NCBI GenBank assembly: GCA_007124095.1
Contig: SLFU01000029.1
Span: 1-45,238 of the forward strand
Direction of reading: 5' to 3'
Origin: Gemmatimonadota bacterium
GTDB taxonomy: Bacteria > Gemmatimonadota > Gemmatimonadetes > Longimicrobiales > Gaopeijiaceae
Length of the DNA: 45,238 bases
A program made the translations under genes and the position numbers. The notes under the pieces were generated by a model that was given only the letters and a program-made list of their open reading frames with translations, did no database searches and was not told the origin of the DNA. Shown here piece by piece: positions 3,172-17,024 of this stretch. Position 1 is the first letter of the stretch. Each line of letters begins with the position of its first letter.

Positions 3172-4161
3172 TCAGCTCCGGGCGGATGGGTCTGGCTGAT
3201 CCATGATCATTTGGGCGAAGGCGGCCGTCCGCTCACGTCTTGCCATCTCGGCTTCGGTTCTTCGCAGCCAGGCCACAAAGAGGGCGACCGCGGCGGCAGT
3301 ATACACCAGCCCGGCCGGCACCCACATGAGCACCCCAGCGAGCTGCTGATCCGCGAGGGCATCCATTTCCCAGAGGTGTGCTCCCGCATCGTGGCCCGGG
3401 TACCAGCGTCGGGGGGCGAAGGTGATGAGGGCGCCCAGGGCTCCGCTCTGGAGTGCGGTGGCGAAGACGTAGAGTACCGCAGCACCGTATCCTGGCCAGC
3501 TCCGGCGGCTGGTCCTGGACACGAGAATCCACCAGAAGAGGGTAGCGGTGAAGAAGAAGCTTGCGTGTTCCAGGGTGTGTATCAGGTAGCTCTCGAGGGC
3601 CGCCTCGTAGAGGGCGGGCACATGCCATGCCCAGAGAGCGCCTACATGAAGGACGAGGACCGAGGCCGGGTGGGTGACTCCGGCCCAGCTCCGCTGCAGC
3701 TCCGGCCGGCGGCGAAGGGCATCGCCGACGCGTCGCCGCCATGCTACGGGAAGGGCCCAGAGGTAAGCGTGCAGTGGTCTCCCAAGCACCAGGAGGGGAG
3801 CGGAGACCACCATCAGGATCATGTGCTGCACCATGTGCATCGAGAAGAGGGTGTGCCCGAGTGCGTGCACCGGCGAAATGAGTGCGATGTAGAGGGTCCA
3901 GATCCCGAGCAGGTAGGACCCCGCTCGCCATCTCGAAATTCCGCGGTCCCTCCCCGCTCGACCCCAGAGGTTTCCCACGCCCCGGAGGTACATGACCAGA
4001 GCCACCGCCAGAACAGCGAGGATCCAGGGGTCCCAGTTCCACGCCAACCACGCCTCGCCCGGTGCGATGGGGGTATGGGCGAAGCCGGATGCGGGACGAA
4101 GGAGGAGGATCACTCCGCTTCCGACTCCGGCCGACACCCACGGGCCAGGCGTCGGTCTCAT
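3172..4161 (-). CDS. ctaG: cytochrome c oxidase assembly protein, CtaG (caa3_CtaG) family
   Basis: This 329-residue integral membrane protein has about seven hydrophobic segments and the histidine-rich pattern of the caa3-type CtaG family: GHTLFSMHMVQHMILM, PLLVLGRPLHAYLWALP and LEHASFFFTATLFWW. The family is needed for assembly of Gram-positive-type caa3 oxidases, probably in delivery of copper to the CuB/CuA centres; that role is known for Bacillus CtaG and transferred here by homology. Its ATG overlaps the stop of the preceding membrane-protein gene by 4 bases (ATGA at 4161-4158). It is therefore the last gene of the respiratory operon that starts with Rieske at 10486. It is unrelated to the Cox11-type protein also called CtaG. 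Confidence 0.9.
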   Translation of the reverse strand: MRPTPGPWVSAGVGSGVILLLRPASGFAHTPIAPGEAWLAWNWDPWILAVLAVALVMYLRGVGNLWGRAGRDRGISRWRAGSYLLGIWTLYIALISPVHALGHTLFSMHMVQHMILMVVSAPLLVLGRPLHAYLWALPVAWRRRVGDALRRRPELQRSWAGVTHPASVLVLHVGALWAWHVPALYEAALESYLIHTLEHASFFFTATLFWWILVSRTSRRSWPGYGAAVLYVFATALQSGALGALITFAPRRWYPGHDAGAHLWEMDALADQQLAGVLMWVPAGLVYTAAAVALFVAWLRRTEAEMARRERTAAFAQMIMDQPDPSARS

Positions 4162-4685
4162 CCTCGGTAGGCCCCCATCCCGACGCTGTCACAGCGAGCC
4201 ATCCAGCCCTCGAGCTCCATCAGGATGATCGGAGAGTCTTCCGTAGGGATCGCCCGGCACGGATCGACGAAGAAGAGCACCTGGAGGCCCTCCACCAGGA
4301 TGAGGGTGAGGAAGAACGCGCTGAGGAGCGTGCCGAAGAGGGCGAGGAAGCGCTCGATCCGGGCCCTTGCAGCGGGGCGGAAGGTCCTGAGGTCCTCCGT
4401 CCACTCAGCCGCCTCGGGGATCGGTGGGACGGAGAGGAGCTGTCGGTGGAGTCGCCAGCCGGCTACCATCGCCGACGCAGCGACCACTGCCGCGAGGGCT
4501 GTGAGCAGATGAAGCGGGAGCTCTCTGCCCGTCATGCACATGTAGGGCACGAGGGCGTAGCTGGCCGTGAGATGAATGGACCAGGCCAGGATGCCCCCCA
4601 GCCCCGCAAACCATAGCGCTCCCCGGCCTACACTCCCCGAGCCGGGGTCGGGGCCGGCCGAGCCGGTGTCGGCTGCTCTTTCCAT
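4158..4685 (-). CDS. conserved-looking membrane protein between cox subunit III and ctaG
   Basis: The 175-residue product starts at an ATG (4685-4683) directly after a purine-rich GAGGAGAAGAGAG stretch; a longer frame from 4715 has no comparable site. It has four hydrophobic helices: GALWFAGLGGILAWSIHL, LHLLTALAAVVAASAMVAGW, FLALFGTLLSAFFLTLIL and a shorter one around LQVLFFVDPC. Cys residues sit at MCMTG, VDPC and MARC. I do not recognise a named domain. Its position between subunit III and CtaG, with a 4-base overlap to ctaG, suggests an accessory or assembly factor of the oxidase; that role is inference from context only. Confidence 0.75.
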   Translation of the reverse strand: MERAADTGSAGPDPGSGSVGRGALWFAGLGGILAWSIHLTASYALVPYMCMTGRELPLHLLTALAAVVAASAMVAGWRLHRQLLSVPPIPEAAEWTEDLRTFRPAARARIERFLALFGTLLSAFFLTLILVEGLQVLFFVDPCRAIPTEDSPIILMELEGWMARCDSVGMGAYRG

Positions 4686-4754
4686 CTCTCTTCTCCTCTC
4701 TCCGCGAGCCGTCACCGGCCCGTCACAGAATCTGCCGGGTCCTCCTCCAACCTT

Positions 4755-5384
4755 TTAGAGGATGGGAACCAGATACTGGACCCCGAAAAAGAGAAGCGAC
4801 CCCAGGGCCACGAAGAGCCAGTAGATGAGGAGCGCTTCGACTCCCGTGTAACGTCGGGTTCCCACGTGGCCCCCCAGGGCCAGCGCCCACACGACCGTCC
4901 CGGCCAGGAGGACCACGATCACATGAAGCGCGGCATATCCGGACATGCTCCAGTCGAGGGAGCCGTAAGCGTCGATGGTCCAGTGGTGGTCCTTGACGGC
5001 GTACTCCCGGATCTTGAGGCCGAGGTATGCCGCGGCCAGAAACATTCCGAGGGGAAGGAGCCTCAAGAAGTGACCGACACGGCCCTCCCGAACTGCCCTG
5101 AGGCCCATCCAGACAGGGAGGGGGCTCAGCAAGAGAAGGATCTGGCCTATCGCGGGCGGAAGCAGGTCCGGGGGCGCCACTCCCGGTGGTGGCCAGGCTT
5201 CGAGACCGAGGCGGAGGTAGAGGTAGCTCACAACCCAGAGGCACAGCAGTGTGGCCTCGATGAGCACGAGGAGCACCACCCCCCAGATGAGAGGGGAGCG
5301 CCTGCCGGTGAGCTGCCGGGGGAGCGAATCCGCGTCATCCGGCCGACCGGCGTGGTGATCCGGTCGGACCCGTTCAGGGCTCAT
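4755..5384 (-). CDS. ctaE: heme-copper oxidase subunit III
   Basis: The 209-residue product has five predicted transmembrane helices and the typical subunit III features: an initial helix with E and W residues (VLLVLIEATLLCLWVVSYLY), a loop rich in proline (WPPPGVAPPDLLPP), then LGLKIREYAVKDHHWTIDAYGS followed by GYAALHVIVVLLAGTVVW. The short five-helix form is usual for bacterial caa3-type enzymes. The protein stabilises subunit I and has no metal centre of its own. The start ATG overlaps the stop of subunit I by 4 bases (5384-5381), indicating coupled translation. A 69-base gap separates it from the next gene of the operon. Confidence 0.9.
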   Translation of the reverse strand: MSPERVRPDHHAGRPDDADSLPRQLTGRRSPLIWGVVLLVLIEATLLCLWVVSYLYLRLGLEAWPPPGVAPPDLLPPAIGQILLLLSPLPVWMGLRAVREGRVGHFLRLLPLGMFLAAAYLGLKIREYAVKDHHWTIDAYGSLDWSMSGYAALHVIVVLLAGTVVWALALGGHVGTRRYTGVEALLIYWLFVALGSLLFFGVQYLVPIL

Positions 5385-7399
5385 TCGTTCGCATCCCAGC
5401 GATCGGGCCTCCTTTCCTCCCGAGCGCCGAAGGGTGCTCCGGCGGGCTCGGGATTCCCGGGTGTGTCTTCGATTCCCGACGACTCATCGTCCAGCGGCTC
5501 GTCCCGCGGCCAGTGCCATCCCACGAGGGCAACGAAGGCGAGGGCGAGACCGACGGGAACCAGGGCCAGGGTCGCGATCGCACCCAGGAAGGAGACGGTG
5601 AGGGCGAGGGCCAGCCAGAGTGGCCAGAGGGACGGGCGGGGCATGATCGCCCGGCCCAGCGGCTCGGCGGTGACTGGGCTGGTGATGATCTGATCCCGCC
5701 GGAGGTCGGGAGCCTCCGAGAGCTCGGCGAGCCAACCAGGCCGTTTCTGGAAGGGGGGCGCGTCCGGAGGCGGCTCGGACCAAAGTGGATCCTTCCCACG
5801 CACGATGGGAACCAGTAGGAAGTTGTAGCTTTGGGGCGGGGAAGTCGTGGCCCACTCGAGGGTGTTTCCACCCCAGGGGTCGTGGCCGGCCGAGGGCCCC
5901 ACTCGCCAGCTGACGACCAGATTCCACAGGAAGATCACCATCGCTGCTCCCATCACGAGCGCCCCCCCCGTCGAGATGAGGTTCAACCCATCCCATCCGA
6001 GGCCGGGGTGGTAGGTGTACACGCGCCTGGGCATCCCTTCGAACCCCACAATGTGCATGGGAAAGAAGGAGATGTTGAAGCCTCCGAAAAAGAGCCAGAA
6101 ATGCCACCGACCCAGCCCTTCGTCGAGGAGTCGTCCCGTAACCTTCGGGAACCAGAAGTAGATTGCCGCAAAGATCGGGAGGACCACCCCCCCCACCAGC
6201 ACGTAGTGGAAGTGGGCGACGATGAAGTAGGTGTCGTGAACCTGCCAATTGAAAGGGACCGCGGCGATCATGATGCCGGTGATCCCCCCGAGGATGAAGA
6301 GGACGATGAACCCCAGGGAGAAGAGCATCGGGGTCGCGATGGCGTGCAGCTTCCCCTGCCAGATCGTGGCAATCCAGGCGAAGATCTGGATCGCGCTGGG
6401 GATCGTGATCAGCATGCTCGCGGCGGCGAAGAAGCTGAGGCCCACCAGAGCGAATCCGACCGTGTACATGTGGTGGACCCAGACCCCAAAGCTCAGGATC
6501 CCGATGATCAGGGCGGAGACCACGACCAGGGTGTAGCCCGCCAGCGGCCTCCGGCAAAAGACCGGGATTACCGTGGAAACCACTCCCACTGCGGGGAGGA
6601 GCATGATGTAGACGTCTGGGTGGCCGAAGAACCAGAAAAGGTGTTGCCAGAGGAGCGGATCGCCCCCGGCCGCGTGGTTGAAGAAGTGGAAGCCCGCCAT
6701 CCGGTCCAGAGCAAGCATCAGGCTCGTCAGCATGAGGGCCGGCATGGCGAACACGATCATGAATGACGTGATGAGGATGGCCCATACGAAGACGGGAATC
6801 CGGTCGAGGGACATGCCGGGGGCTCGGTGTTTCATCACGGTGACGATGATCTCGACTGCGGCCACCAGCGCCGAGACTTCGAGAAATGTGATCATCGTCA
6901 CCCAGAAATCGATGTTCACACCCGGCCTGAAGCCGATCCCGGTCAACGGCACATAGTTGTACCAGCCACTATCCGGGGCGTAGCCGAAGAGGTAGGCCCC
7001 ATAGAGTGATACGCCTGCGATGAGATAGACCCAGTACCCGAAAGCGTTGAGCCGCGGGAAGGCCATCTCCCGCGCCCCGATCATGAGGGGCACCAGATAG
7101 ATGGCCAGGCCTTCGAGAAAGGGCACGGCGAAGAGGAACATCATCGTCGATCCGTGCATCGTGAATGCCTGGTTGAACGCCTCCGGGGAGAGGATGCCGA
7201 GGAGGGGTTGGGCGAGCTGCAGGCGCATGGCCAGGGCTTCGAGTCCCCCCAGGAGGAGAAACACGAAAGCGGTGACCATGAAGCGGAGGCCCACGACCCG
7301 ATGGTTCACGGCCGTGAGAAATCTCCAGATCCCGCGAGGCGGCGACCACACCCGGTCCAGCCGATCATGGATCTCAGCGGTTCCTGGACGGGCGTTCAC
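5381..7399 (-). CDS. ctaD: heme-copper oxidase subunit I (A-family-like) with altered proton-channel residues
   Basis: This 672-residue catalytic subunit binds heme a, heme a3 and CuB in the membrane and normally reduces O2 to water. By alignment with bovine subunit I, all metal ligands are present: H82 and H398 (low-spin heme), H396 (heme a3), and H260, H309 and H310 (CuB). The cross-link Tyr is present in HPDVY (Y264). Three proton-channel positions differ: bovine D91 is E111 (GAREMAFPRLN), E242 is D262 (HPDVY), and K319 is Q338 (IPSAIQIF). The Arg pair (MPRRVY) that contacts the heme propionates is kept. A C-terminal extension of about 130 residues adds two hydrophobic helices and an acidic tail. 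The ATG overlaps the subunit II stop by 4 bases. Retention of Tyr favours an oxygen reductase; the missing channel Lys leaves room for an unusual or NO-reducing variant. Confidence 0.93.
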   Translation of the reverse strand: MNARPGTAEIHDRLDRVWSPPRGIWRFLTAVNHRVVGLRFMVTAFVFLLLGGLEALAMRLQLAQPLLGILSPEAFNQAFTMHGSTMMFLFAVPFLEGLAIYLVPLMIGAREMAFPRLNAFGYWVYLIAGVSLYGAYLFGYAPDSGWYNYVPLTGIGFRPGVNIDFWVTMITFLEVSALVAAVEIIVTVMKHRAPGMSLDRIPVFVWAILITSFMIVFAMPALMLTSLMLALDRMAGFHFFNHAAGGDPLLWQHLFWFFGHPDVYIMLLPAVGVVSTVIPVFCRRPLAGYTLVVVSALIIGILSFGVWVHHMYTVGFALVGLSFFAAASMLITIPSAIQIFAWIATIWQGKLHAIATPMLFSLGFIVLFILGGITGIMIAAVPFNWQVHDTYFIVAHFHYVLVGGVVLPIFAAIYFWFPKVTGRLLDEGLGRWHFWLFFGGFNISFFPMHIVGFEGMPRRVYTYHPGLGWDGLNLISTGGALVMGAAMVIFLWNLVVSWRVGPSAGHDPWGGNTLEWATTSPPQSYNFLLVPIVRGKDPLWSEPPPDAPPFQKRPGWLAELSEAPDLRRDQIITSPVTAEPLGRAIMPRPSLWPLWLALALTVSFLGAIATLALVPVGLALAFVALVGWHWPRDEPLDDESSGIEDTPGNPEPAGAPFGAREERRPDRWDANE

Positions 7400-8400
7400 C
7401 GCAAGCTCTCCAGGTAGTGGACCAGGGCGCTCACATCATCCCCGTCCAGCGAGGTGGGAGGCATTCGGACCCCGGGCTTGAAGTGGTGAGGGTTGAGGAT
7501 CCAGGCCGTCAGGTTCTCCCGGGAGTTCTCCACGGTGAGGGCACCCAGGGTCTCACGGCCCGCAAGGTGGGTCAGGTCGGGTCCCGGACTCCCGGAGAAC
7601 TCAGGTACGGTCACTCCCCGTATCCCGTGACAGGCCGCACAGCCGGCTTCCCCGAAGATCTCTCGTCCCCGCAGGGAAAGGGGGTCCGACCCCGCCTCGG
7701 GAACTGCCCGTTCCGCCAGCCATGCTTGGAACTCCTCCTCCGGCGAGGCCACGACGAGGAGTGACATGAGCGCGTGCTGGACTCCGCAGAACTCGGTGCA
7801 CTGACCGCGGTAGCGACCGGGTTCGTCGGCCATGATCCAGATCCGATTCGTCCTGCCCGGGATCATGTCCACCTTACCCGGAGCGAGCTGTGGGACCCAG
7901 AAGCTGTGAATCACATCCGCGGAGGTGACCCGGACCTCGATAGGGATCCCCGCCGGAATATGGAGCTCGTTGGCGGTGGTGACCCCGTACCCGGGGTAGT
8001 GGATTTCCCACCAGAACATGTGCCCCGTCACTTCAACCCTGAGACCGGGATCGCCAGGCGGCTCCGAGACTGAGGCCCCGGTCCGAACGGAGAGTGCCAC
8101 GAAGCTGACGAGAAGGAGCGCAGGCACCGCCGCCCCGGCCAGGAAGATGAATCGGCGCTCTCGGTCCTGTACGGTTCCACCCGCGTCCGCCGTTGCGGCC
8201 CTCCTTGCCCGGTAGACGGCGAAGAGGAGCCCGGCGATGACCAGCGTCGCGAGCACCCCCGTGGTCCAGAACATGATCCACCAGAGGTTCGCGATCTCGG
8301 CCGCCCCCCGGCTCTGGGGGTCGAGGGCGGACTGCCACCCACCACATCCGGTCGCCGATAGCACACAGACGGCCGGAGCGACGGTAGCGAGGCGCTTCAT
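7396..8400 (-). CDS. ctaC: oxidase subunit II: CuA domain fused to cytochrome c, lipoprotein
   Basis: The 334-residue protein passes electrons from cytochrome c into subunit I. A lipoprotein signal (LSATGC, Cys19) is followed by two transmembrane helices (about 40-63 and 85-105). The periplasmic cupredoxin domain carries the full CuA set: H165 (DVIHSFW), C201, E203, C205, H209 and M212 (QCTEFCGVQHALM). The C-terminal cytochrome c domain has CAACH at 254-258 and a likely axial Met313 (GVRMPP). This caa3-type layout removes the need for a separate soluble donor. The gene overlaps both neighbours by 4 bases (start with the cytochrome b stop, stop with the subunit I start), so the three are likely translated together. 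Confidence 0.93.
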   Translation of the reverse strand: MKRLATVAPAVCVLSATGCGGWQSALDPQSRGAAEIANLWWIMFWTTGVLATLVIAGLLFAVYRARRAATADAGGTVQDRERRFIFLAGAAVPALLLVSFVALSVRTGASVSEPPGDPGLRVEVTGHMFWWEIHYPGYGVTTANELHIPAGIPIEVRVTSADVIHSFWVPQLAPGKVDMIPGRTNRIWIMADEPGRYRGQCTEFCGVQHALMSLLVVASPEEEFQAWLAERAVPEAGSDPLSLRGREIFGEAGCAACHGIRGVTVPEFSGSPGPDLTHLAGRETLGALTVENSRENLTAWILNPHHFKPGVRMPPTSLDGDDVSALVHYLESLR

Positions 8401-9815
8401 TCGTCCCCTCCGGCGGCCCAGCGGAGGTAGGCGACGATCCGGTCCATTTCTTCGGAGGTCAATACCTCGTAATAGGCGGGCATGTCGCGGACGCCGATCA
8501 TCGTTCGAATCGTGATCTCCTCCGGGGGCATGCGCCGGGTCGCGGCTGTGAGGTCGGGGCCGTAGATCCCCCCGTGACCGTGGACCTGGTGGCAGAACTG
8601 GCAGCCCCGATCGAAGAACACCTGCGCACCCTCCCTAGCCCCCGCAGAGGCTCCTTCGAGCTGCTCGGCCGGTAGGGGCTCGGTTTCGAAGTTGGGCACC
8701 CAGTGGGGCCGGAGACCGAAGGCGGTGAGGGTGCCCCAGAAGAGGAGGGCCATACCCACAGCGAAGACCGCCCATGGCCGGCGGCTCGGAGCTCGTTCTC
8801 CGTCGGGGAACAGAATGGGAAGAGCCAGCAGAGAGAGGCCGAGAAAGATGGGAAACCAGACCAGCACGACCTCATCGAGCACCCGGGGTTTTAGCCAGAT
8901 GAGGGCATAGTACCAGCGGAAGTACCAGTCGGGCCGTGGATCCGCTTCGAGTGCGGTGGGGTCCGGAGCGGGACCCGGTCCCTGGGGCCCTAAGGTCAGT
9001 GCGAACGCAAAGACTGCCAGGAGCACGAAGGCGACGAATACGAGCTCGCGCCAGGCCGCGTCGGGCCAGTGGGTGCTCCCGCCTTCCCGGACCAACTTTG
9101 CGTACCAGGCCCGATAAGACTCCTTGTCCACGGGGCGTCCCGCTCTGGGCGGCTCGGAGATGCCGTTCTGGAAGACCAGATAGATATGGAAGCCCATCAC
9201 GACGAGAATCAGGAGGGGGAGGATGACCACATGGAGGGCGAAGAACCGCGTAAGGGTCCCCCCTCCTAGCGTTTCCCCCGCCAGGATGAGCTGCATCAGG
9301 TATTCGCCGACCAACGGTGTTCGCCCCGCGAACTGGGCCGCGACCATCACCGTCCAGACGCCATCCTGGTCCCACCGGAGGAGCTGACCCGTGAAGGCCA
9401 TCGCCAGGACCAGGAACAGCAGGATCACGCCGCTCATCCAGTTCAGCTCACGGGGGAACTTGTAGGATCCGGTGAGGAAGACGCGGCTCAGGTGAACGAA
9501 GGTAAGAAGGATCATCGCGGATGCGCCGAAGAAGTGCAGTGCGCGCAGGAAGGCGCCCCAGAAGACCTCCTCGTTGAGGTAACGAAGGCTGTCCCAGGCA
9601 AAGGCCGGCGCCGGAACGTATGCCATCGCAAGCCCCGTTCCCGTGACGACCTGGAAGAGGAAGAGGAAGACGAGGGCCTGGCCGAAGACGTAGAACCATC
9701 CCTTTCGGGAACGCCCCACTTCGGGAGGAATCTTGTGGGAGAGCAGCGCCTGCACGATGGGGGAGATCCGAGATCGATCGTAGAGCCACCCCCCGACTCT
9801 CTTCACTATCCGCAT
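8397..9815 (-). CDS. cytochrome b of a bc-type complex fused to a C-terminal cytochrome c domain
   Basis: The 472-residue protein starts at the ATG at 9815-9813, with GGAG 5 bases upstream; a longer frame to 9890 is Arg/Pro-rich and looks non-coding. Heme b ligands are H94 and H195, and H108 and H210. The Qo-site motif is PDWY (295-298), the Asp form often seen in menaquinol-using complexes rather than PEWY. After the b-type core, residues about 390-470 form a c-type heme domain with CQFCH (405-409) and a likely axial Met445 (VRDMP). The fusion would replace a separate cytochrome c1. It follows the Rieske gene by 98 bases and overlaps subunit II by 4. The product probably forms a quinol:cytochrome c reductase feeding the oxidase encoded downstream; a supercomplex is inference. 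Confidence 0.9.
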   Translation of the reverse strand: MRIVKRVGGWLYDRSRISPIVQALLSHKIPPEVGRSRKGWFYVFGQALVFLFLFQVVTGTGLAMAYVPAPAFAWDSLRYLNEEVFWGAFLRALHFFGASAMILLTFVHLSRVFLTGSYKFPRELNWMSGVILLFLVLAMAFTGQLLRWDQDGVWTVMVAAQFAGRTPLVGEYLMQLILAGETLGGGTLTRFFALHVVILPLLILVVMGFHIYLVFQNGISEPPRAGRPVDKESYRAWYAKLVREGGSTHWPDAAWRELVFVAFVLLAVFAFALTLGPQGPGPAPDPTALEADPRPDWYFRWYYALIWLKPRVLDEVVLVWFPIFLGLSLLALPILFPDGERAPSRRPWAVFAVGMALLFWGTLTAFGLRPHWVPNFETEPLPAEQLEGASAGAREGAQVFFDRGCQFCHQVHGHGGIYGPDLTAATRRMPPEEITIRTMIGVRDMPAYYEVLTSEEMDRIVAYLRWAAGGDE

Positions 9816-9913
9816 GTGATCTCCAAGGCGACTCTGTCGGTGAGAGCGGCCCGGTGGGGCTCGGGTGCCAGGGCTCCCTCTCGGGAGCAACGCTCGGAAT
9901 CAGGTAGGCGTGC

Positions 9914-10486
9914 TCAGCCGCGCTGGGCCGTCACGCCGACGGCCTGGATCTCCACATTCCCGTCTCGAATCCGAACCGGATAGCGGTCGAGTGGGCGCGG
10001 GGGCGGCCCGGCGGCCACGGACCCATCGGCGTAGAAGGCGCCGCCGTGGCAGGGGCACATGAACAGTCTCGGGCCTTCCTCCCAGCGGATCGGGCAACCG
10101 ACGTGGCTGCAGTAGGTGGCGAATGCCACGAACTCCTCCTCTGATTCCCGCCGCAGCCAGGCGGCGGTTTCCGCTGCGAAGCCGGCCCAGGGATGCGGCT
10201 CGGAATCGAAGTAGGTGACCTTCACGGTCTCATCGAGGGGAAAGTCCTCCACCGGGCCTACCAGACGCCAGGTGGGGGCCGCCACGCGGAGAACCGGGGA
10301 GAGAACGAAGCCCACCCAGGGAATGGCCACGAGCGTGGCGAGCAATCCAGCGACGGAGAGGCTGAGCCAGTGGAAGAACCGGCGGCGCCCGAAAGCGGAG
10401 GGGGGGCAAGGGGAGTCACCAAGGGGTCCCCTCCCACCAGGGTCCACGCGGTCGTGGACCGGATCGGCCCCATCGGGTGCTCCCAT
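9914..10486 (-). CDS. Rieske iron-sulfur subunit of the bc-type complex
   Basis: The 190-residue protein has a cytoplasmic N-terminus with GRRRFFHW, resembling a twin-arginine-type signal anchor, then a hydrophobic helix ([21 protein letters not shown]). The Rieske fold follows with both cluster-binding boxes: CSHVGC (126-131) and CPCHGG (144-149). C126, H128, C144 and H147 bind the [2Fe-2S] cluster, while C131 and C146 form the usual disulfide. It takes electrons from quinol at the Qo site of cytochrome b and passes them to the fused heme c. It is the first gene of the respiratory operon. An AGAGGG sequence lies about 10 bases before the ATG. The 225 bases upstream, shared with the divergent DUF1328 gene, should hold the operon promoter. 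Confidence 0.92.
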
Positions 10487-10960: not shown

Positions 10961-11764
10961 TCAACCGGCTGGAAACCAAATCTGCACTGTGGTACCGTCC
11001 CCAGGAGAGCTGGAGATCTCCAACTCCCCCCCGTTTTGTCTCACGAGTCCATAGGCGATCGAAAGACCTAGGCCCCGGTCGTCATCCGGAGATCGAGTGG
11101 TGAAGTAAGGTTGGAGGGCCCGGTCCAACGTCCGCGAATCCATCCCCGGTCCGCTGTCCGACACCTCCATCCGAACCCAGCCGCCCCGAGGCTCACCTGT
11201 TCCGTCCAGATCGTCTGGGTGGTGGATCGCGAGTCGAACGGTGCCGTGCGAGCCCACGGCCTCCCGTGCGTTCAGGACGAGCGCCCGAGTGATCTCCTCG
11301 AGATGGGAGGGGTCGGCAATCACCGGGCACGGCTTGAGAGGAAAGCCGGTGCAGAGGGTCACTTCCCCCGAGAAAAGGATGCCGAGGTCCAGGCTGGATA
11401 CGAAATCCCGGAGGTCGACCACCTCCGACCGTCCCCACTGACTCCCACTGATTGAGAGGAGTTGTGAGGTGACTGCCTCACCCTCTCTGCACGCACGCTG
11501 GATCTCGCGGAGGCTCTCCTCGAGATATTCGTCGCCCATTTCATCGAGGAGATAGGCGGCGTTTCCATGTACTACAGTAAGTAGGTTGTTGAACCGGTGA
11601 GCGACCCGAGCGGCCACGCGAGCTACCGGATCGGCCCAGGTGGGCTCTCCGCCCGATCGGATCTCAGTTTGAACCTCGCGGGCGCCCGACCGACTCGAGT
11701 CGGTCCGGGGCCTCGACGGCTTATCCAGGCTCTCCGGAATCGCGGTTCCCCTTTCCTCGTTCAT
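10961..11764 (-). CDS. soluble histidine kinase without a sensor domain
   Basis: The 267-residue product starts at the second in-frame ATG (11764-11762), which has AGGG 6 bases upstream. Residues 1-45 are polar and low-complexity with no recognised sensor or membrane helix. The dimerisation helix has the phospho-acceptor box ARVAHRFNNLL (H56), of the type seen in NtrB-like kinases. The catalytic domain follows: N box ALVLNAREAVG, G1 DSGPGMD and G2 DDRGLGLSIAYGLV. There is no receiver domain and no response regulator beside it, so its partner may be one of the receivers encoded at 14551-17024 or elsewhere. The downstream end meets the hairpin at 10903-10944. Confidence 0.85.
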   Translation of the reverse strand: MNEERGTAIPESLDKPSRPRTDSSRSGAREVQTEIRSGGEPTWADPVARVAARVAHRFNNLLTVVHGNAAYLLDEMGDEYLEESLREIQRACREGEAVTSQLLSISGSQWGRSEVVDLRDFVSSLDLGILFSGEVTLCTGFPLKPCPVIADPSHLEEITRALVLNAREAVGSHGTVRLAIHHPDDLDGTGEPRGGWVRMEVSDSGPGMDSRTLDRALQPYFTTRSPDDDRGLGLSIAYGLVRQNGGELEISSSPGDGTTVQIWFPAG

Positions 11765-11830
11765 TTCGGTCCCTCTCATTCGGTGCCGTTCAGCCCTAAG
11801 CGATTGTCCCCAGGGAGGTCGGCGTCCGGA

Positions 11831-11967
11831 CTCCCTGCTGCACCCTTACTTGAGTGCACCCGTGTATTCAGGCCGCTACCTACGGCGTGCTCGATCATGG
11901 TTGGCCGAAGCAGGGAGCATGCCACCGTGAAAAACGGTGGGTGTCGATGCAAGAAAGGACGTTGTCC
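11831..11967. ncRNA. possible structured RNA in the 725-bp intergenic region
   Basis: Several nested inverted repeats lie here. CTCCCTGCT (11831-11839) pairs with AGCAGGGAG (11909-11917), enclosing TGCAC/GTGCA (11839-11843 with 11854-11858) and GCCG/CGGC (11872-11875 with 11883-11886). Next is CCACCGT-GAAAA-ACGGTGG (11922-11940), which GCAT (11917-11920) and ATGC (11947-11950) can extend. GGAC-GTT-GTCC follows (11957-11967). The strand is uncertain. On minus it would be the leader of the kinase starting at 11764; on plus, nothing recognisable follows for 500 bases. No known riboswitch class fits fully. Chance pairing in GC-rich DNA is the main alternative. Confidence 0.3.
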
Positions 11968-12489
11968 GTATGGGAGGGGAACCGGAAGAATTTCCCGGCT
12001 GCGGCCTCAAGGTTGACCGGCATCGGCCTCGGGGTGCGGGCCAGATTGGACGGGGCGGGTGACTTGCTGGGCCGGGCCGAGTTCCTGAGCGCCATCGGTG
12101 CCGATCGGACTCCAGGTCACCGCCGTCACGGCGAGCCTCCTCCGGTCGCTCGGATCCCCTTGAAAATCGCGCAGAAGAGGTCCTGTCTCGAAAGGAGACT
12201 GTAACTAATCGGGTGGGCGGTGGGCGCGATAGCACGCACTCATTGCGTGCCTCTCTCTGGTGCCCGCTTATTCACTGACATAGCTTGAATTGAAGGGAGC
12301 GCTCAATCGTCGATGCGCTCTTCCAATGCAGAGGGGCCCCGGGAGCGTCGATGGCCCTTCGCCATTCAGGCCTAGCAGGTATTGCATTAAATTATTGGCC
12401 AGGATGATCAGTCGGACCTGCTGTTACTTCCGCTTTGCCCAGTGGCCATGGCGATCCAGGGAACCTGATGCGACGCGACGAAGCAATCG
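11968..12489. other. intergenic stretch without a convincing gene
   Basis: About 520 bases upstream of the kinase operon have no frame with credible protein sequence. A 30-codon frame from 11970 (MGGEPEEFPG...) has an AAAGGA about 10 bases upstream, but nothing else supports it. The unusually AT-rich TTGCATTAAATTATTGG at about 12382-12398 is the best place for a promoter driving the plus-strand operon from 12490, with no confident -10/-35 pair. Confidence 0.45.
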
Positions 12490-14547
12490 ATGGTGAATTT
12501 CCCTAGCCCCGCACCAGTGTCCCGGCAACCGCTCGGTGCTCGTCCCTGGCCGGGTGTGAGTGGCCGATGGAGCCTCCGATCGCGGGCCTGGTGGATCACG
12601 GCCACGTACGCGGTCTTCGCGGGCCTCTGGGTCGTCTTCTCCGATCAGGCCTTGGCCGCAGTCGTCCAAGACGCCGAGGAGCTGATCCGCTTGAGCGTCT
12701 ACAAGGGGTTGGCCTTCGTCACGGTGACGTCGCTTCTCCTCTTGCTGCTGATCCGGAGGGCGTTCGGGGCCATCGAGGTCGGGTATGCTGCGCTGAAGGA
12801 CGAGGAGTCGGAGCGGCGAGCTCACGAGGCCGAGCTCGAGCGCCTTGGTCGACTCTACGCCGCAATGAGCCACGTCAACCAGGCGATGGTCCGGACTCCG
12901 ACACGCAATGAGCTCTTCGAGAAGGTTTGTAGGCTCCTCGTCGAGCTCGGAGGGTTCCGAATGGCGTGGATCGGATGGCACGACCCCGACACCGATCGTA
13001 TCCTTCCGGCCGCCCGGTGGAGTGACGACGACGGGTACCTCGCAAGGATCACGGTGGATTCTGAAGACCAGTGGGAGGGGCCTCACCCATCGAACATCGC
13101 ATTCCACTCGGGGGAGCCCTTCATCTCGAATGACGTGCTCTCGGACCCGATTTCCTTCGGACTGCCTCACGAGGCCGCAAGGCCCGGCCACCGCGCCTTC
13201 GCCTCCTTTCCGATCCGGCTGGAGGGAGAGGTGCTCGGCCTCCTCAACGTCCACTCGGACGAGCGCGACTTCTTCCAGAGCAGGGAGGTGGCGCTTGTCA
13301 ACGAGACGGCTTCGGACATCTCCTTCGCTCTGGAGAACCTCGAACGCGAGGAGGCGCGCCGGGGGGCGGAGGCGGCTGCGCGGAGTGAGAGACTCTTCTC
13401 CGATGCGATCATCGAGAGCATGCCGGGCATCCTGTACCTCTTCACGGCCGAAGGCAGGTTCCTCCGCTGGAACCGGAATTTCGAAACTGTGTCCGGCTAC
13501 TCTAAGGAGGAGCTCGTCCAGATGGGTCCCCTGGACTTCTTTGCCACCGAGGACAAACAGCCGCTCGCGGATCGAATCGCCGAGGTTTTCGAGTCGGGGG
13601 AATCCTTCGTGGAGGCCCCGTTCCTCACCAAGGACGGGACTGCGATCCCCTATTTTTTCACGGGACGGCGACTCGAGTTCGAGGGCAGCGAATGCTTGGT
13701 GGGGGTGGGTCTCGACGTTTCGGAGCGTGTCCGTGCCGACGCCCGGAGGCGTGAGTCCGAGGAGGCCCTTCGCGAGCTCAATCGGACGCTCGAGGTGAAG
13801 GTGACCGATCGGACGAGGGAGCTCCGGGAGGCCCTCGTCCGTGCGGAGGCCGCCGATCGCCTCAAGTCCGCCTTCTTGGCCACCATGTCACACGAGCTGC
13901 GCACACCTCTCAACTCGATCATCGGCTTCACGGGAATCCTCCTCCAGGAGCTCGCCGGGCCCCTCACTCCAGAGCAGTCCCGGCAGCTCGGGATGGTCCA
14001 GGGCAGCGCGAGACATCTCCTCGAGCTGATCAACGATGTGCTCGATCTCTCCAAGATCGAGGCCGGGCAGCTGGAGGTTCGAAGTGAGCCGTTCGACCTT
14101 TGCAGCGTGGTCGAACGCGTGGCGGACACCGTCAAGCCGATGGCCGATACCAAGGGCCTCGCCCTCGAGGTGAGGGTGGATTCGGAGGTGGGCACCATCG
14201 TCAACGACTCCCGCCGGGTCGAGCAGGTGCTTCTTAACCTTCTGAACAACGGAATCAAGTTCACGGAGCAGGGGAGCGTGATCCTGGGGGTGGAAAAGGC
14301 GGACGAGGGAGTGCGGCTCCGGGTGACCGACACCGGAATCGGAATCAAGTCCGAGCACCTCGATCAGCTCTTTCAACCCTTTCGTCAGATCGATTCCGGC
14401 CTCACCCGTGAACACGAAGGCACGGGGCTCGGTTTGGCCATCTGCCACAAGCTTACCACGCTCATGGGGGGCGAGATCTCCGCGATGAGCGAGTGGCGTG
14501 AGGGGAGCGAGTTTCTGGTGTCTCTCCCCGCTCGCCGGATCGAATAG
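12490..14547 (+). CDS. membrane sensor histidine kinase (2TM-GAF-PAS-HisKA-HATPase)
   Basis: The 685-residue protein has two transmembrane helices (about 34-53 and 71-89) joined by a short periplasmic loop. A GAF-like domain follows (about 138-285; GFRMAWIGWHDPDT, then FPIRLEGEVLGLLNVHS), then a PAS domain (about 300-412; GILYLFTAEGRFLRWNRNF), a coiled coil (415-455) and the kinase core. The phospho-acceptor is H468 (MSHELRTPLNSI). The N box (LLNLLNNGIKF), G1 (DTGIGI, 614-619) and G2 (GTGLGLA, 644-650) are intact. It ends without a receiver, but a stand-alone receiver gene starts 3 bases after its stop, so phosphotransfer to that protein is likely. The signal is unknown; GAF and PAS could bind small ligands or redox cofactors. 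Confidence 0.92.
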   Translation: MVNFPSPAPVSRQPLGARPWPGVSGRWSLRSRAWWITATYAVFAGLWVVFSDQALAAVVQDAEELIRLSVYKGLAFVTVTSLLLLLLIRRAFGAIEVGYAALKDEESERRAHEAELERLGRLYAAMSHVNQAMVRTPTRNELFEKVCRLLVELGGFRMAWIGWHDPDTDRILPAARWSDDDGYLARITVDSEDQWEGPHPSNIAFHSGEPFISNDVLSDPISFGLPHEAARPGHRAFASFPIRLEGEVLGLLNVHSDERDFFQSREVALVNETASDISFALENLEREEARRGAEAAARSERLFSDAIIESMPGILYLFTAEGRFLRWNRNFETVSGYSKEELVQMGPLDFFATEDKQPLADRIAEVFESGESFVEAPFLTKDGTAIPYFFTGRRLEFEGSECLVGVGLDVSERVRADARRRESEEALRELNRTLEVKVTDRTRELREALVRAEAADRLKSAFLATMSHELRTPLNSIIGFTGILLQELAGPLTPEQSRQLGMVQGSARHLLELINDVLDLSKIEAGQLEVRSEPFDLCSVVERVADTVKPMADTKGLALEVRVDSEVGTIVNDSRRVEQVLLNLLNNGIKFTEQGSVILGVEKADEGVRLRVTDTGIGIKSEHLDQLFQPFRQIDSGLTREHEGTGLGLAICHKLTTLMGGEISAMSEWREGSEFLVSLPARRIE

Positions 14548-14550
14548 CCC

Positions 14551-14949
14551 ATGAAGCGACAAGTGCTCTTGATCGAGGACAACGACCAGAACCGCTACCT
14601 CGTCACCTTCTTACTTGAGCGGCACGGCTTCGAAGTCGTCTCCGCCGCGGACGGCCCGCAAGGAATCGGGCTGGCCGAGCAGCGAACGCCCGACCTCGTC
14701 CTCCTCGACATCCAGCTTCCGACCATGCACGGCTACGACGTCGCTCGGTCCCTCCGGGAGCTTTCCTCCCTCGAGGAGGTGCCGATCGTTGCGGTCACCT
14801 CGTACGCGATGGTCGGCGATCGCGAGCGGGCCCTGAGTGCCGGCTGCACGGGGTACATCGAGAAGCCCATCAACCCGGAGACCTTCGTAGGAGAGGTGGA
14901 GGCCTACCTCGCGCGCCCTCCTTCCACCGCGCCGGAAGGAAGCCGATGA
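14551..14949 (+). CDS. stand-alone response regulator receiver protein
   Basis: The 132-residue product is a single CheY-like receiver. The acidic pocket (LLIEDND, E9-D10), the phosphorylation site D53 (VLLDIQLP), the switch Thr in VAVTSYA and the conserved Lys in YIEKPI are all present. It has no output domain, so it probably works as a phosphate shuttle or by protein contact, as in DivK-like regulators. It begins 3 bases after the stop of the upstream kinase and overlaps the downstream hybrid kinase by 4 bases (ATGA at 14946-14949). Together these form a compact three-gene signalling operon. Confidence 0.93.
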   Translation: MKRQVLLIEDNDQNRYLVTFLLERHGFEVVSAADGPQGIGLAEQRTPDLVLLDIQLPTMHGYDVARSLRELSSLEEVPIVAVTSYAMVGDRERALSAGCTGYIEKPINPETFVGEVEAYLARPPSTAPEGSR

Positions 14950-17024
14950 CACGTGTGTTGATCGTCGACGACGGGGAGGTGAACCTCCACTACCTGCGAG
15001 CGGTCCTGGAGGGAAATGCGTATATCGTGGATGCCGCACGAAACGGAGCCGAGGCACTGGACCTCGCCCGGCGTACCCGCCCCGACCTCGTCATCTCCGA
15101 CCTCCTCATGCCGGTGATGGACGGGTATACCCTTCTGCGTCAGTGGAAGGAGGATGGGGATCTCAGGGAGGTGCCGTTTCTGGTCTACACTGCAACCTAC
15201 ACCGAGCCGGAGGACGAGCGGCTGGCGCTGGAACTCGGCGCCGACGCGTTCCTTGTGAAGCCGACGGAGCCCGAAGAGCTGCTCGCAAAGATTCGGGAGG
15301 TCCGGGATCGCGGCGCCGTGGCGGTGCCCAGTATGGAGCGGAACTCCGGAAGCCCCGAGGAAGGTGTACTCGAGGCCTACAACCAGGTCCTGGTTCGCAA
15401 GCTCGAGCAGAAGATGCGGCAGCTCGAGGAATCGAATGCGGCTCTTCAGAAAGAGATCGGCGAGCGGACCAGGGCGAAGGAGGAGCTGGAACGGAGCTCC
15501 GCCCTGCTCAGGATCGCCGGACAGGCTGCGCGACTCGGGGGATGGGCGTTGCGCATCGAGGACGGAACGCTGACATGGTCGGAGGAGGCGTGTGCCATCT
15601 ACGATCTTGGCAGAGGGGATGCCCCGACGCTCGAGGAAGCCGTCCACTACTGCATCCCGGAATACCGGGAGAAATTCCAGGAAGAGTTCGAGGCCTGCGT
15701 CCGAGCCGGTGAGCCCTTCGATTACGAGTTCGAGATCGTCACCGCGATGGGACGACGGAGATGGGTGCGGGCAATCGGGGAGGCGGCGCGTGACTCCGCG
15801 GGCTCGGTCGTCCGGATTCAGGGAGCGCTCCAGGACGTGTCCGACCGCAGGAATCTCGAAGAGACCCTCCTCCGCGCGACCCGAATGGAAAGCATCGGGT
15901 TGCTGGCCGGAGGGATGGCCCACGATCTGAGCAATGTGCTCACGCCCATCCTCCTCTCCATCCACCCCCTGAAGGAGCAGGTCGAAGACGAGATGCTGCA
16001 GGAATCGCTCGCGACGATCGAGTCGTGTGCACTGCGAGGGGCGGAGATGGTCAAGCACGTCATGTCCTTCGCCCGAGGGATCGATGAGACCCAGGCCCGT
16101 GTGGACCTCATCGAGATCCTGGGGGACCTCGGTCGGGTGGTGTACGACACCTTCCCCGATTCCGTGCGCTTTCGGACGAGAATCTCCGGGGACCTTTGGG
16201 ACCTGATGGGAGATTCCACGCAGCTGCACCAGGTCCTCATGAACCTCTTTGTCAATGCACGTGATGCGATGCCCGACGGGGGGCTTCTCACGGTGATCGC
16301 CGAGAACATCGAGGTCGATGACCACTACGCGGCGACGAGCGGTGACGCGGTCCCCGGACCCTATGTGCGTGTTTCAGTGGTCGACACCGGGGTGGGGATG
16401 TCCCCCGAGGTGCTGTCCCGAATCTTCGACCCGCTCTTCACCACCAAGCCCCCGGGAAGGGGGACGGGGCTCGGCCTGTCCACGGTGGCCGTCATCGTCC
16501 ACAACCACCTCGGGTTCATCAACGTGTATTCGGAGGAGGGGGAAGGCACCACGTTCCGCCTCCACTTTCCCGCCAGCGGCGAGGTGGAAAGGGCGAATCC
16601 CCTCGAGAGCCCTCCGGAAGAGTGGAAGGGGAACGACGAGCTCCTCCTGGTTGTGGACGATGAGGCCGCCGTGAGGTCGTTGACGCAACAGACGCTGGAG
16701 GCCTTCGGGTACCGCGTGGTCATCGCGCGGGACGGCGTCGATGCACTCCGCGCCTTCGAGAGTAGGGCCGATGACATCGACCTGGTCTTCACAGACACCA
16801 CCATGCCGAATATGGACGGCCCCGCGATGATCAAGGAACTCCTGCGCCTGGATCCAGAGGTACGCATCATCGTGGCCAGCGGGCTCGGCGCGGACGGTGG
16901 AGAGGGACGCGCTGCCGAGGCAGGAGCGAAGTACTTCGTTCCGAAGCCCTACACCGCCGACGTTCTCCTCGCCGCCATCCGGCGCGCCTTGAGCGAGGAG
17001 GGCGGCTCATCGAAAGACGAGTAA
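14946..17024 (+). CDS. hybrid histidine kinase REC-PAS-HisKA-HATPase-REC
   Basis: The 692-residue soluble protein starts with a receiver domain (1-120; D52 in VISDLLMP, K105 in FLVKP). A coiled coil (140-185) leads to a PAS-like domain (about 190-300, closing with RIQGALQDVSDR). The kinase core has H326 (GGMAHDLSNVLTP), N box LMNLFVNARDA, G1 DTGVGM and G2 GRGTGLGLS. A second receiver is at about 562-685 (D617 in VFTDTTMPNMDG, K667 in VPKPY). Receivers at both ends suggest it integrates phosphate from the upstream kinase and passes it through its own C-terminal receiver. No DNA-binding or enzymatic output domain is present, so the final output protein is not in this operon. Confidence 0.92.
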   Translation: MTRVLIVDDGEVNLHYLRAVLEGNAYIVDAARNGAEALDLARRTRPDLVISDLLMPVMDGYTLLRQWKEDGDLREVPFLVYTATYTEPEDERLALELGADAFLVKPTEPEELLAKIREVRDRGAVAVPSMERNSGSPEEGVLEAYNQVLVRKLEQKMRQLEESNAALQKEIGERTRAKEELERSSALLRIAGQAARLGGWALRIEDGTLTWSEEACAIYDLGRGDAPTLEEAVHYCIPEYREKFQEEFEACVRAGEPFDYEFEIVTAMGRRRWVRAIGEAARDSAGSVVRIQGALQDVSDRRNLEETLLRATRMESIGLLAGGMAHDLSNVLTPILLSIHPLKEQVEDEMLQESLATIESCALRGAEMVKHVMSFARGIDETQARVDLIEILGDLGRVVYDTFPDSVRFRTRISGDLWDLMGDSTQLHQVLMNLFVNARDAMPDGGLLTVIAENIEVDDHYAATSGDAVPGPYVRVSVVDTGVGMSPEVLSRIFDPLFTTKPPGRGTGLGLSTVAVIVHNHLGFINVYSEEGEGTTFRLHFPASGEVERANPLESPPEEWKGNDELLLVVDDEAAVRSLTQQTLEAFGYRVVIARDGVDALRAFESRADDIDLVFTDTTMPNMDGPAMIKELLRLDPEVRIIVASGLGADGGEGRAAEAGAKYFVPKPYTADVLLAAIRRALSEEGGSSKDE

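Follow-up and report, generated by a model that had tools for sequence, protein, structure and literature searches.

The window, the 45,238-nucleotide stretch of Gemmatimonadota DNA analysed here (contig SLFU01000029.1), encodes a heme-copper enzyme that keeps the metal ligands of an A-family oxygen reductase but carries altered residues in both of its proton channels. This raises the question of how such an enzyme takes up its protons and, since the preliminary description considered either a reorganised proton delivery or a divergent branch with perhaps NO-reductase-type activity, which reaction it catalyses.

The oxidase operon and its subunit I

The subunit I gene has a GTG start codon, encodes a heme-copper superfamily protein of 672 aa (CoxA), and overlaps both neighbours by 4 bp, at the stop of the upstream subunit II gene (position 7396) and at the start of the downstream subunit III gene (position 5384) (Table 1). 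The protein matches Pfam COX1 (507.5 bits) and, above the family cut-off, NCBIfam CtaD_CoxA (701.8 bits). Its AF2 model (pLDDT 86.9, pTM 0.90) predicts two additional TM helices in a C-terminal extension (about residues 592–629), and the top Foldseek match of this model is the Thermus caa3 oxidase (2yev), while the nearest solved relatives by sequence are the actinobacterial (mycobacterial/corynebacterial) aa3 oxidases (6adq, 7q21).

For residue mapping, a bovine fragment identical to residues 61–330 of 1occ was added to the family alignment. Bovine D91, E242, K319 and Y244 correspond to E111, D262, Q338 and Y264 of the window protein, the D-channel residues N80, N98 and N163 to I100, N118 and E183, and G154 and G76 to E174 and E96. 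The His ligands lie in register (H61, H240 and H290/H291 with H82, H260 and H309/H310), phmmer alignments to mycobacterial aa3 agree with this mapping, and helix VIII is aligned without gaps from P334 to T345. Direct reading of the codons gave GAG for E111, GAC for D262 and CAG for Q338, and verified that H82, H260, Y264, H309, H310, H396 and H398 are all encoded. Thus, the three channel substitutions listed in the preliminary description, as well as the retention of the cross-linkable active-site Tyr of helix VI (Tyr-I) and of the six His ligands of the low-spin heme, heme a3 and CuB, are borne out. The same description had allowed that a shifted helix VIII alignment might place a Lys at the K319 position; no such shift was found, and an alignment error hiding the Lys was rejected on the basis of the ungapped helix and the bovine mapping.

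When set against the residues by which A-family (A1) channels are defined, the D-channel list of Asp, three Asn and Glu (PMC3084760) reads E111, I100, N118, E183 and D262 in the window protein, with a single Asn kept. The K-channel Lys (PMC3084760) and the entrance Glu of subunit II (PMC10341450) are both absent, their places being taken by Q338 and a Phe, respectively. The sequence signature, the fold and the position inside the A-family rows of our trees are all those of the A family. Subunit I is an A-family protein by descent, not by the channel-residue definition, and the gene encodes subunit I of a caa3-type A-family oxygen reductase.

The operon is tightly packed, with several 4-bp overlaps, and carries its own quinol-to-cytochrome c module (Rieske protein and cytochrome b). 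The gene order Rieske-cytb-CoxB-CoxA-CoxC-orf-CtaG is repeated in the closest relatives (L140, L142, L143, L144 and L146) as far as their contigs extend, and in relatives, too, the 185-aa protein without a family match lies between subunit III and CtaG. The operon is adjoined (10961–17024) by histidine kinase, GAF/PAS kinase and response-regulator hybrid genes, and any regulatory link between them and the oxidase would be a guess.

A heme A synthase is encoded elsewhere in the source genome, which makes an aa3 centre possible. Also encoded there are a second A-type subunit I that bears the Lys (L002), a further subunit I with a weak match below the cut-off (L004), and, on contig C162, a subunit I with HSSQQ in helix VI, that is, with Gln at the Tyr position, which is the eNOR signature (L003). 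The latter gene is adjoined by genes for a cupredoxin subunit II and an SCO-like protein and, judging from its sequence, is a candidate nitric oxide reductase of the same organism.

Table 1. Coordinates of the oxidase operon genes and of the subunit I codons discussed in the text
Feature	Position	Strand	Basis or remark
CtaG, caa3-type CuB assembly factor	3172..4161	-	Pfam Caa3_CtaG, 218 bits
185-aa operon protein	4158..4715	-	no family match; place kept in relatives
CoxC, subunit III	4755..5384	-	Pfam COX3, 36.8 bits
CoxA, A-family subunit I	5381..7399	-	Pfam COX1, NCBIfam CtaD_CoxA, AF2, Foldseek
Q338 codon, bovine K319 (K-channel Lys)	6386..6388	-	alignment and codon reading
D262 codon, bovine E242 (D-channel end)	6614..6616	-	common to the 8-genome subclade
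E183 codon, bovine N163 / R. sphaeroides N207 (D-channel Asn)	6851..6853	-	family alignment
E174 codon, helix IV, bovine G154 / R. sphaeroides G198	6878..6880	-	invariant Glu of the core Lys-less clade
E111 codon, bovine D91 (D-channel entrance)	7067..7069	-	alignment and codon reading
I100 codon, bovine N80 / R. sphaeroides N121 (D-channel Asn lost)	7100..7102	-	family alignment
E96 codon, helix II, bovine G76	7112..7114	-	family alignment
CoxB, subunit II, CuA domain fused to cytochrome c	7396..8400	-	Pfam COX2 and Cytochrom_C
Cytochrome b with C-terminal cytochrome c domain	8397..9890	-	Pfam Cytochrome_B, Cytochrome_CBB3
Rieske iron-sulfur protein	9914..10486	-	Pfam Rieske

Lys-less lineages within the A family

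Homologues from related genomes and from named genomes were aligned, and a 133-row tree was built in which L003 is a very distant row. The Lys-less enzymes in this tree, the eNOR-like outgroup apart, formed a single clade of 91 rows (SH-aLRT 100), in agreement with the divergent branch envisaged in the preliminary description. An 88-row tree built under a mixture model, with the trait columns removed, recovered the clade with the same support (SH-aLRT 100) and gave one loss of the Lys and one gain of E174. Besides the subclade of the window, the clade includes many relatives from the phylum of the window (presumably Gemmatimonadota, judging from a named Gemmatimonadales neighbour in the tree, L051) and proteobacterial members from Bradyrhizobium, Mesorhizobium, Rhizobium, Sinorhizobium, Paraburkholderia, Massilia, Achromobacter and others. 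A Methylobacter contig (L053) carries two different Lys-less subunit I genes close together, one of the E174 type and one of the HPWVY type described below. A Lys-less clade of such size does not sit easily with a survey that typed oxidases by their channel residues, where all but 4 of 1216 sequences had the residues expected for their own type (PMC3084760).

Seven further genomes of the same family, whose genes are 67–87% identical to that of the window, share E111 and D262, which rules out an assembly artefact. The exchange of the two carboxylates in kind, which the preliminary description had noted, is real but confined to these eight genomes, and need not be what matters most for function. 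Likewise, the replacement of the K-channel Lys by Gln is confirmed but is not peculiar to the window gene, as the loss of the Lys extends across the whole clade; even within the 8-genome subclade, position 338 is Gln in six members (the window included) and Trp in two.

A sister subclade, recognised by the motif HPWVY, has Trp at the D-channel Glu site (E242), has replaced the Lys by Ala, Ser or Gln (Ala or Ser in most), and lacks the helix IV Glu. With both classical proton residues gone, it is stranger than the window enzyme. Its members (L017, L023, L028, L053:5943-7938, L124, L131, L133, L134, L192, L193 and L218) retain the Tyr and the His ligands; a different residue, Phe, occupies the D-channel Glu site in L191.

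The bacterial family of the window also contains a second, separate Lys-less A-type group (L172–L179; larger loci L194–L201), about 37% identical, in which the Lys is replaced by Leu or Met and helix VIII reads ISVPIAE(L/M). In this group the helix IV Glu is found at position 173, one residue before E174 and at the position of R. sphaeroides S197, a D-channel wall residue (PMC10341450), and no Glu was seen at the K-channel mouth of its subunit II. A third Lys-less lineage (L184) has Leu at the Lys site and no helix IV Glu. On a 57-row tree, the Lys was lost three times and a helix IV Glu was gained twice, each time within a Lys-less lineage. E174 is not a necessary replacement, as neither the HPWVY subclade nor L184 acquired this Glu on losing the Lys.

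Linked changes in both channels and a proposed route of protons

The loss of the Lys is accompanied by changes in a second subunit. The Glu at the K-channel mouth of subunit II, which in R. sphaeroides (E101-II) forms the K-channel entrance (PMC10341450), was found in 19 of 20 Lys-bearing enzymes, the twentieth having a Glu one residue off, but in none of the 80 enzymes of the clade core and none of six from the HPWVY subclade; in the window, the CoxB residue is Phe. The Lys and the entrance Glu have thus been lost together though encoded by separate genes. In the lower K-channel, the position of R. sphaeroides S365 is Asn or Ser in Lys-bearing enzymes and mostly Cys, Ala, Ser or Gly in the clade. 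At the active-site end, the window protein retains Y264, S275 and S335, as do most clade members.

On the D-channel side, E174 is present in 83 of 83 clade-core sequences and in none of 45 Lys-bearing enzymes (0 of 73 after wider sampling). The clade core, whose minimum pairwise identity is 39%, has 64 invariant columns, of which only E174 and P408 were never seen in Lys-bearing enzymes, leaving E174 as the sole invariant ionisable residue unique to it. Pro408 itself (helix X; 6176–6178) is absent from the 45 Lys-bearing enzymes compared. The bovine N163 position is Glu in 66 of the 83 core sequences and the N80/N121 position mostly aliphatic, both being Asn in all 45 Lys-bearing enzymes. E96 occurs in 58 of the 83, and Glu is not among the residues at that position in Lys-bearing enzymes. 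The N98/N139 position, Asn in the window, is Ser or Thr in many clade members, and the entrance acid position varies between Asp, Asn, Ser and Glu, many members having Asn or Ser. In a later set of 17 named plasmid-borne genes, E174 was present in all eight Lys-less enzymes with E262 and in none of the eight Lys-bearing ones, while one HPWVY enzyme had neither Lys nor E174. In the main clade the Lys was lost once and E174 was gained once, so that the case for linking the two is one of conservation, not of repeated evolution. Fisher tests, which take no account of descent, carry no weight in this comparison. The linked changes (E174, E183, E96, and the losses of N80 and of the subunit II Glu) go beyond those first described, and this coordination across both channels and subunit II supports the earlier suggestion that proton delivery has been reorganised.

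In model enzymes, the K-channel supplies protons for reduction of the active site and the D-channel supplies the rest (PMC6934443, PMC12901375), and in model A-family oxidases the Lys is regarded as necessary for that reduction, the K319M substitution blocking heme a3 reduction (PMC12901375). Taking the above changes together, we rate at slightly better than even the proposal that the window enzyme is an O2-reducing oxidase that has abandoned its K-channel and takes in all its protons by way of a rebuilt D-channel, whose fixed element is E174. According to this proposal, the cytoplasmic half of the K-channel (the subunit II Glu, the S365 position and the Lys), no longer a proton route, would have become non-polar or free to vary, whereas Y264, S275 and S335 would be retained for local hydrogen bonding at the active site. 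Protons for O2 chemistry and for any pumping would enter through the rebuilt D-channel, where carboxylates on helices II and IV would relay them to D/E262 and the heme a3-CuB site. E174 would be the best candidate for a fixed relay near D/E262: its helix position adjoins S197 and lies one turn from S200/S201 of R. sphaeroides, which are D-channel wall residues (PMC10341450), so that its side chain may reach the channel. Operation on a single channel, like any pumping, is what we infer from sequence, and one proton per electron, fewer or none might be pumped. The broader claim, that the clade represents a widespread natural A-family oxidase working on the D-channel alone, in which E174, E183 and E96 took over the proton delivery of the K-channel, is put forward tentatively, at a little under even chances.

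The retained Y264, S275 and S335 could instead belong to a K-channel that still works without its Lys, conducting through Q338, S335, S275, waters and Y264, in which case the role of the D-channel Glu residues would be limited to adjusting pKa or packing. At the K319 site, ba3 oxidases have Thr (T312) and cbb3 oxidases Gly (G286), and both use a K-type route (PMC12901375); as the Lys is dispensable for that route in the B and C families, the remaining polar residues of the window enzyme might still conduct. We nevertheless consider this unlikely, given that the entrance Glu of subunit II is lost, that the S365 position has mostly become Cys, Ala, Ser or Gly, and that the Lys site is Ala or Ser in most HPWVY enzymes and Trp in two of the eight closest genomes, a residue that a conducting site should not allow. 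Somewhat unlikely, but to be given more weight, is a naturally decoupled oxidase, one that would reduce O2 rapidly yet pump few extra protons, if any. This reading overlaps with the rebuilt D-channel, as it concerns the H+/e- ratio, and it draws on substitutions of D-channel Asn residues known to decouple model enzymes: the window protein and most of the clade have Glu at N163/N207, and N207D decouples the R. sphaeroides enzyme (PMC6934443), while N98S/T, the residues found at N98/N139 in many clade members though not in the window, also decouple (PMC12901375), which makes reduced coupling a live alternative outcome. Such decoupling, however, is known from single changes in other backgrounds, and many members have Asn or Ser at the entrance acid position itself, a pattern more in keeping with relocation of the channel than with its breakage. 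Moreover, coupling can reportedly be restored when a carboxylate is moved between the D132 and N139 positions, as in D132N/N139D.

Relaxed constraint, with channel residues drifting in a redundant or decaying oxidase, might be suspected because the genome has another A-family oxidase with its Lys (L002), but is very improbable: the intact operon is conserved in relatives, the clade core holds 64 invariant columns including E174, and E111 and D262 are identical across eight genomes. Least credible of all is an A-family-derived nitric oxide reductase, eNOR-like or new, a possibility raised in the preliminary description; the altered channel residues alone count for it. What defines eNOR is a Gln where oxidases have the active-site Tyr (PMC8756737), and Tyr264 is kept in 92 of 92 clade members, along with the three CuB His. 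CuA and cytochrome c domains, COX3 and CtaG are all products of the operon, and in this genome the eNOR signature belongs to a different enzyme, L003, which has a cupredoxin subunit II and is very distant in the tree. That the enzyme is not a classical NOR, as was argued from the Tyr, agrees with our results, since cNOR and qNOR have NOR motifs, extra Glu residues and no cross-linked Tyr (PMC3084760), and the window protein has the Tyr, the three CuB His and oxidase family signatures.

The reason why A-family oxidases keep two proton channels is debated, and the Lys-less clade may show why the usual enzyme needs both. If it exists, a D-only A-family oxidase would be the mirror image of the B- and C-family oxidases, which use the K-type route only. 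Members in, for example, Rhizobium etli and Sinorhizobium meliloti are ready-made test enzymes for whether two channels are required for O2 chemistry, pumping or neither. The annotation of such genes as ordinary aa3/caa3 proton pumps may be wrong for many genomes.

Comparison with known oxidases

Part of this picture is already known, namely the COX operon kinds type a-II and COX1-COX3 (PMC4013037) and the loss of the K-channel within the A family, published for archaeal oxidases in the portion of PMC8239418 available to us; these archaeal enzymes belong to other lineages, and that portion describes no rebuilt D-channel. In the main texts of the openly accessible literature, we found no account of a Lys-less clade of this kind, of its Glu E174, or of the subunit II Glu being lost along with the Lys. 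The eNOR enzymes (PMC8756737), heme-copper relatives of the oxygen reductases, have Gln at the active-site Tyr that the window enzyme keeps. No solved structure from the Lys-less clade was found among the sequence and fold matches; the nearest ones are the mycobacterial/corynebacterial aa3 and Thermus caa3 oxidases cited above, and in our alignments the mycobacterial aa3 chains, unlike the window protein, have the K-channel Lys and the canonical D/E residues.

The closest named counterparts are rhizobial. The oxidases of Sinorhizobium fredii pSfreNXT3a and Rhizobium etli p42b, about 51–54% identical to that of the window, belong to the same clade and share with it the order coxB-ctaD-cox3-small ORF-CtaG, a long subunit I, the change of Lys to Gln, E174 and the lack of the subunit II entrance Glu. 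They have Asn and Glu where the window has E111 and D262, and the window operon adds Rieske and cytochrome b genes and lacks a PQQ dehydrogenase. From its position on plasmid b, we take the R. etli p42b operon to be RHE_PB00063-66. An identification of the clade with CoxN (CoxMNOP) was considered and dropped, as the R. etli member lies on p42b and RHE_PB00063-66 are listed apart from coxMNOP (PMC4274787); consequently, the phenotypes of coxMNOP mutants cannot be applied to the Lys-less clade. A COX3-doublet operon that is possibly coxMNOP-like (L211) is Lys-bearing.

COX operon type a-II is described as having a COX1-COX4 fusion, a five-helix COX3 and often a PQQ-dehydrogenase neighbour (Degli Esposti 2014, PMC4013037). 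Matched by this published description alone, the pSfreNXT3a and p42b operons would fit type a-II. For the COX1-COX4 fusion, the window protein offers its C-terminal extension with two predicted helices as a candidate. The window gene groups with these rhizobial genes in our tree, which was built without the sequences of PMC4013037 itself, and the PQQ-dependent dehydrogenase neighbour of type a-II is replaced in the window operon by the Rieske and cytochrome b genes. The same clade includes the COX1-COX3 fusion oxidases of the Sinorhizobium meliloti 1021 pSymB kind (840-aa ctaD in strain Ak57), which are likewise Lys-less and have E174 and E183. These are 45–48% identical to the window protein and differ from it in having Asp at the D-channel entrance, Glu at position 262 and a long subunit I, which we take for a fusion with subunit III.
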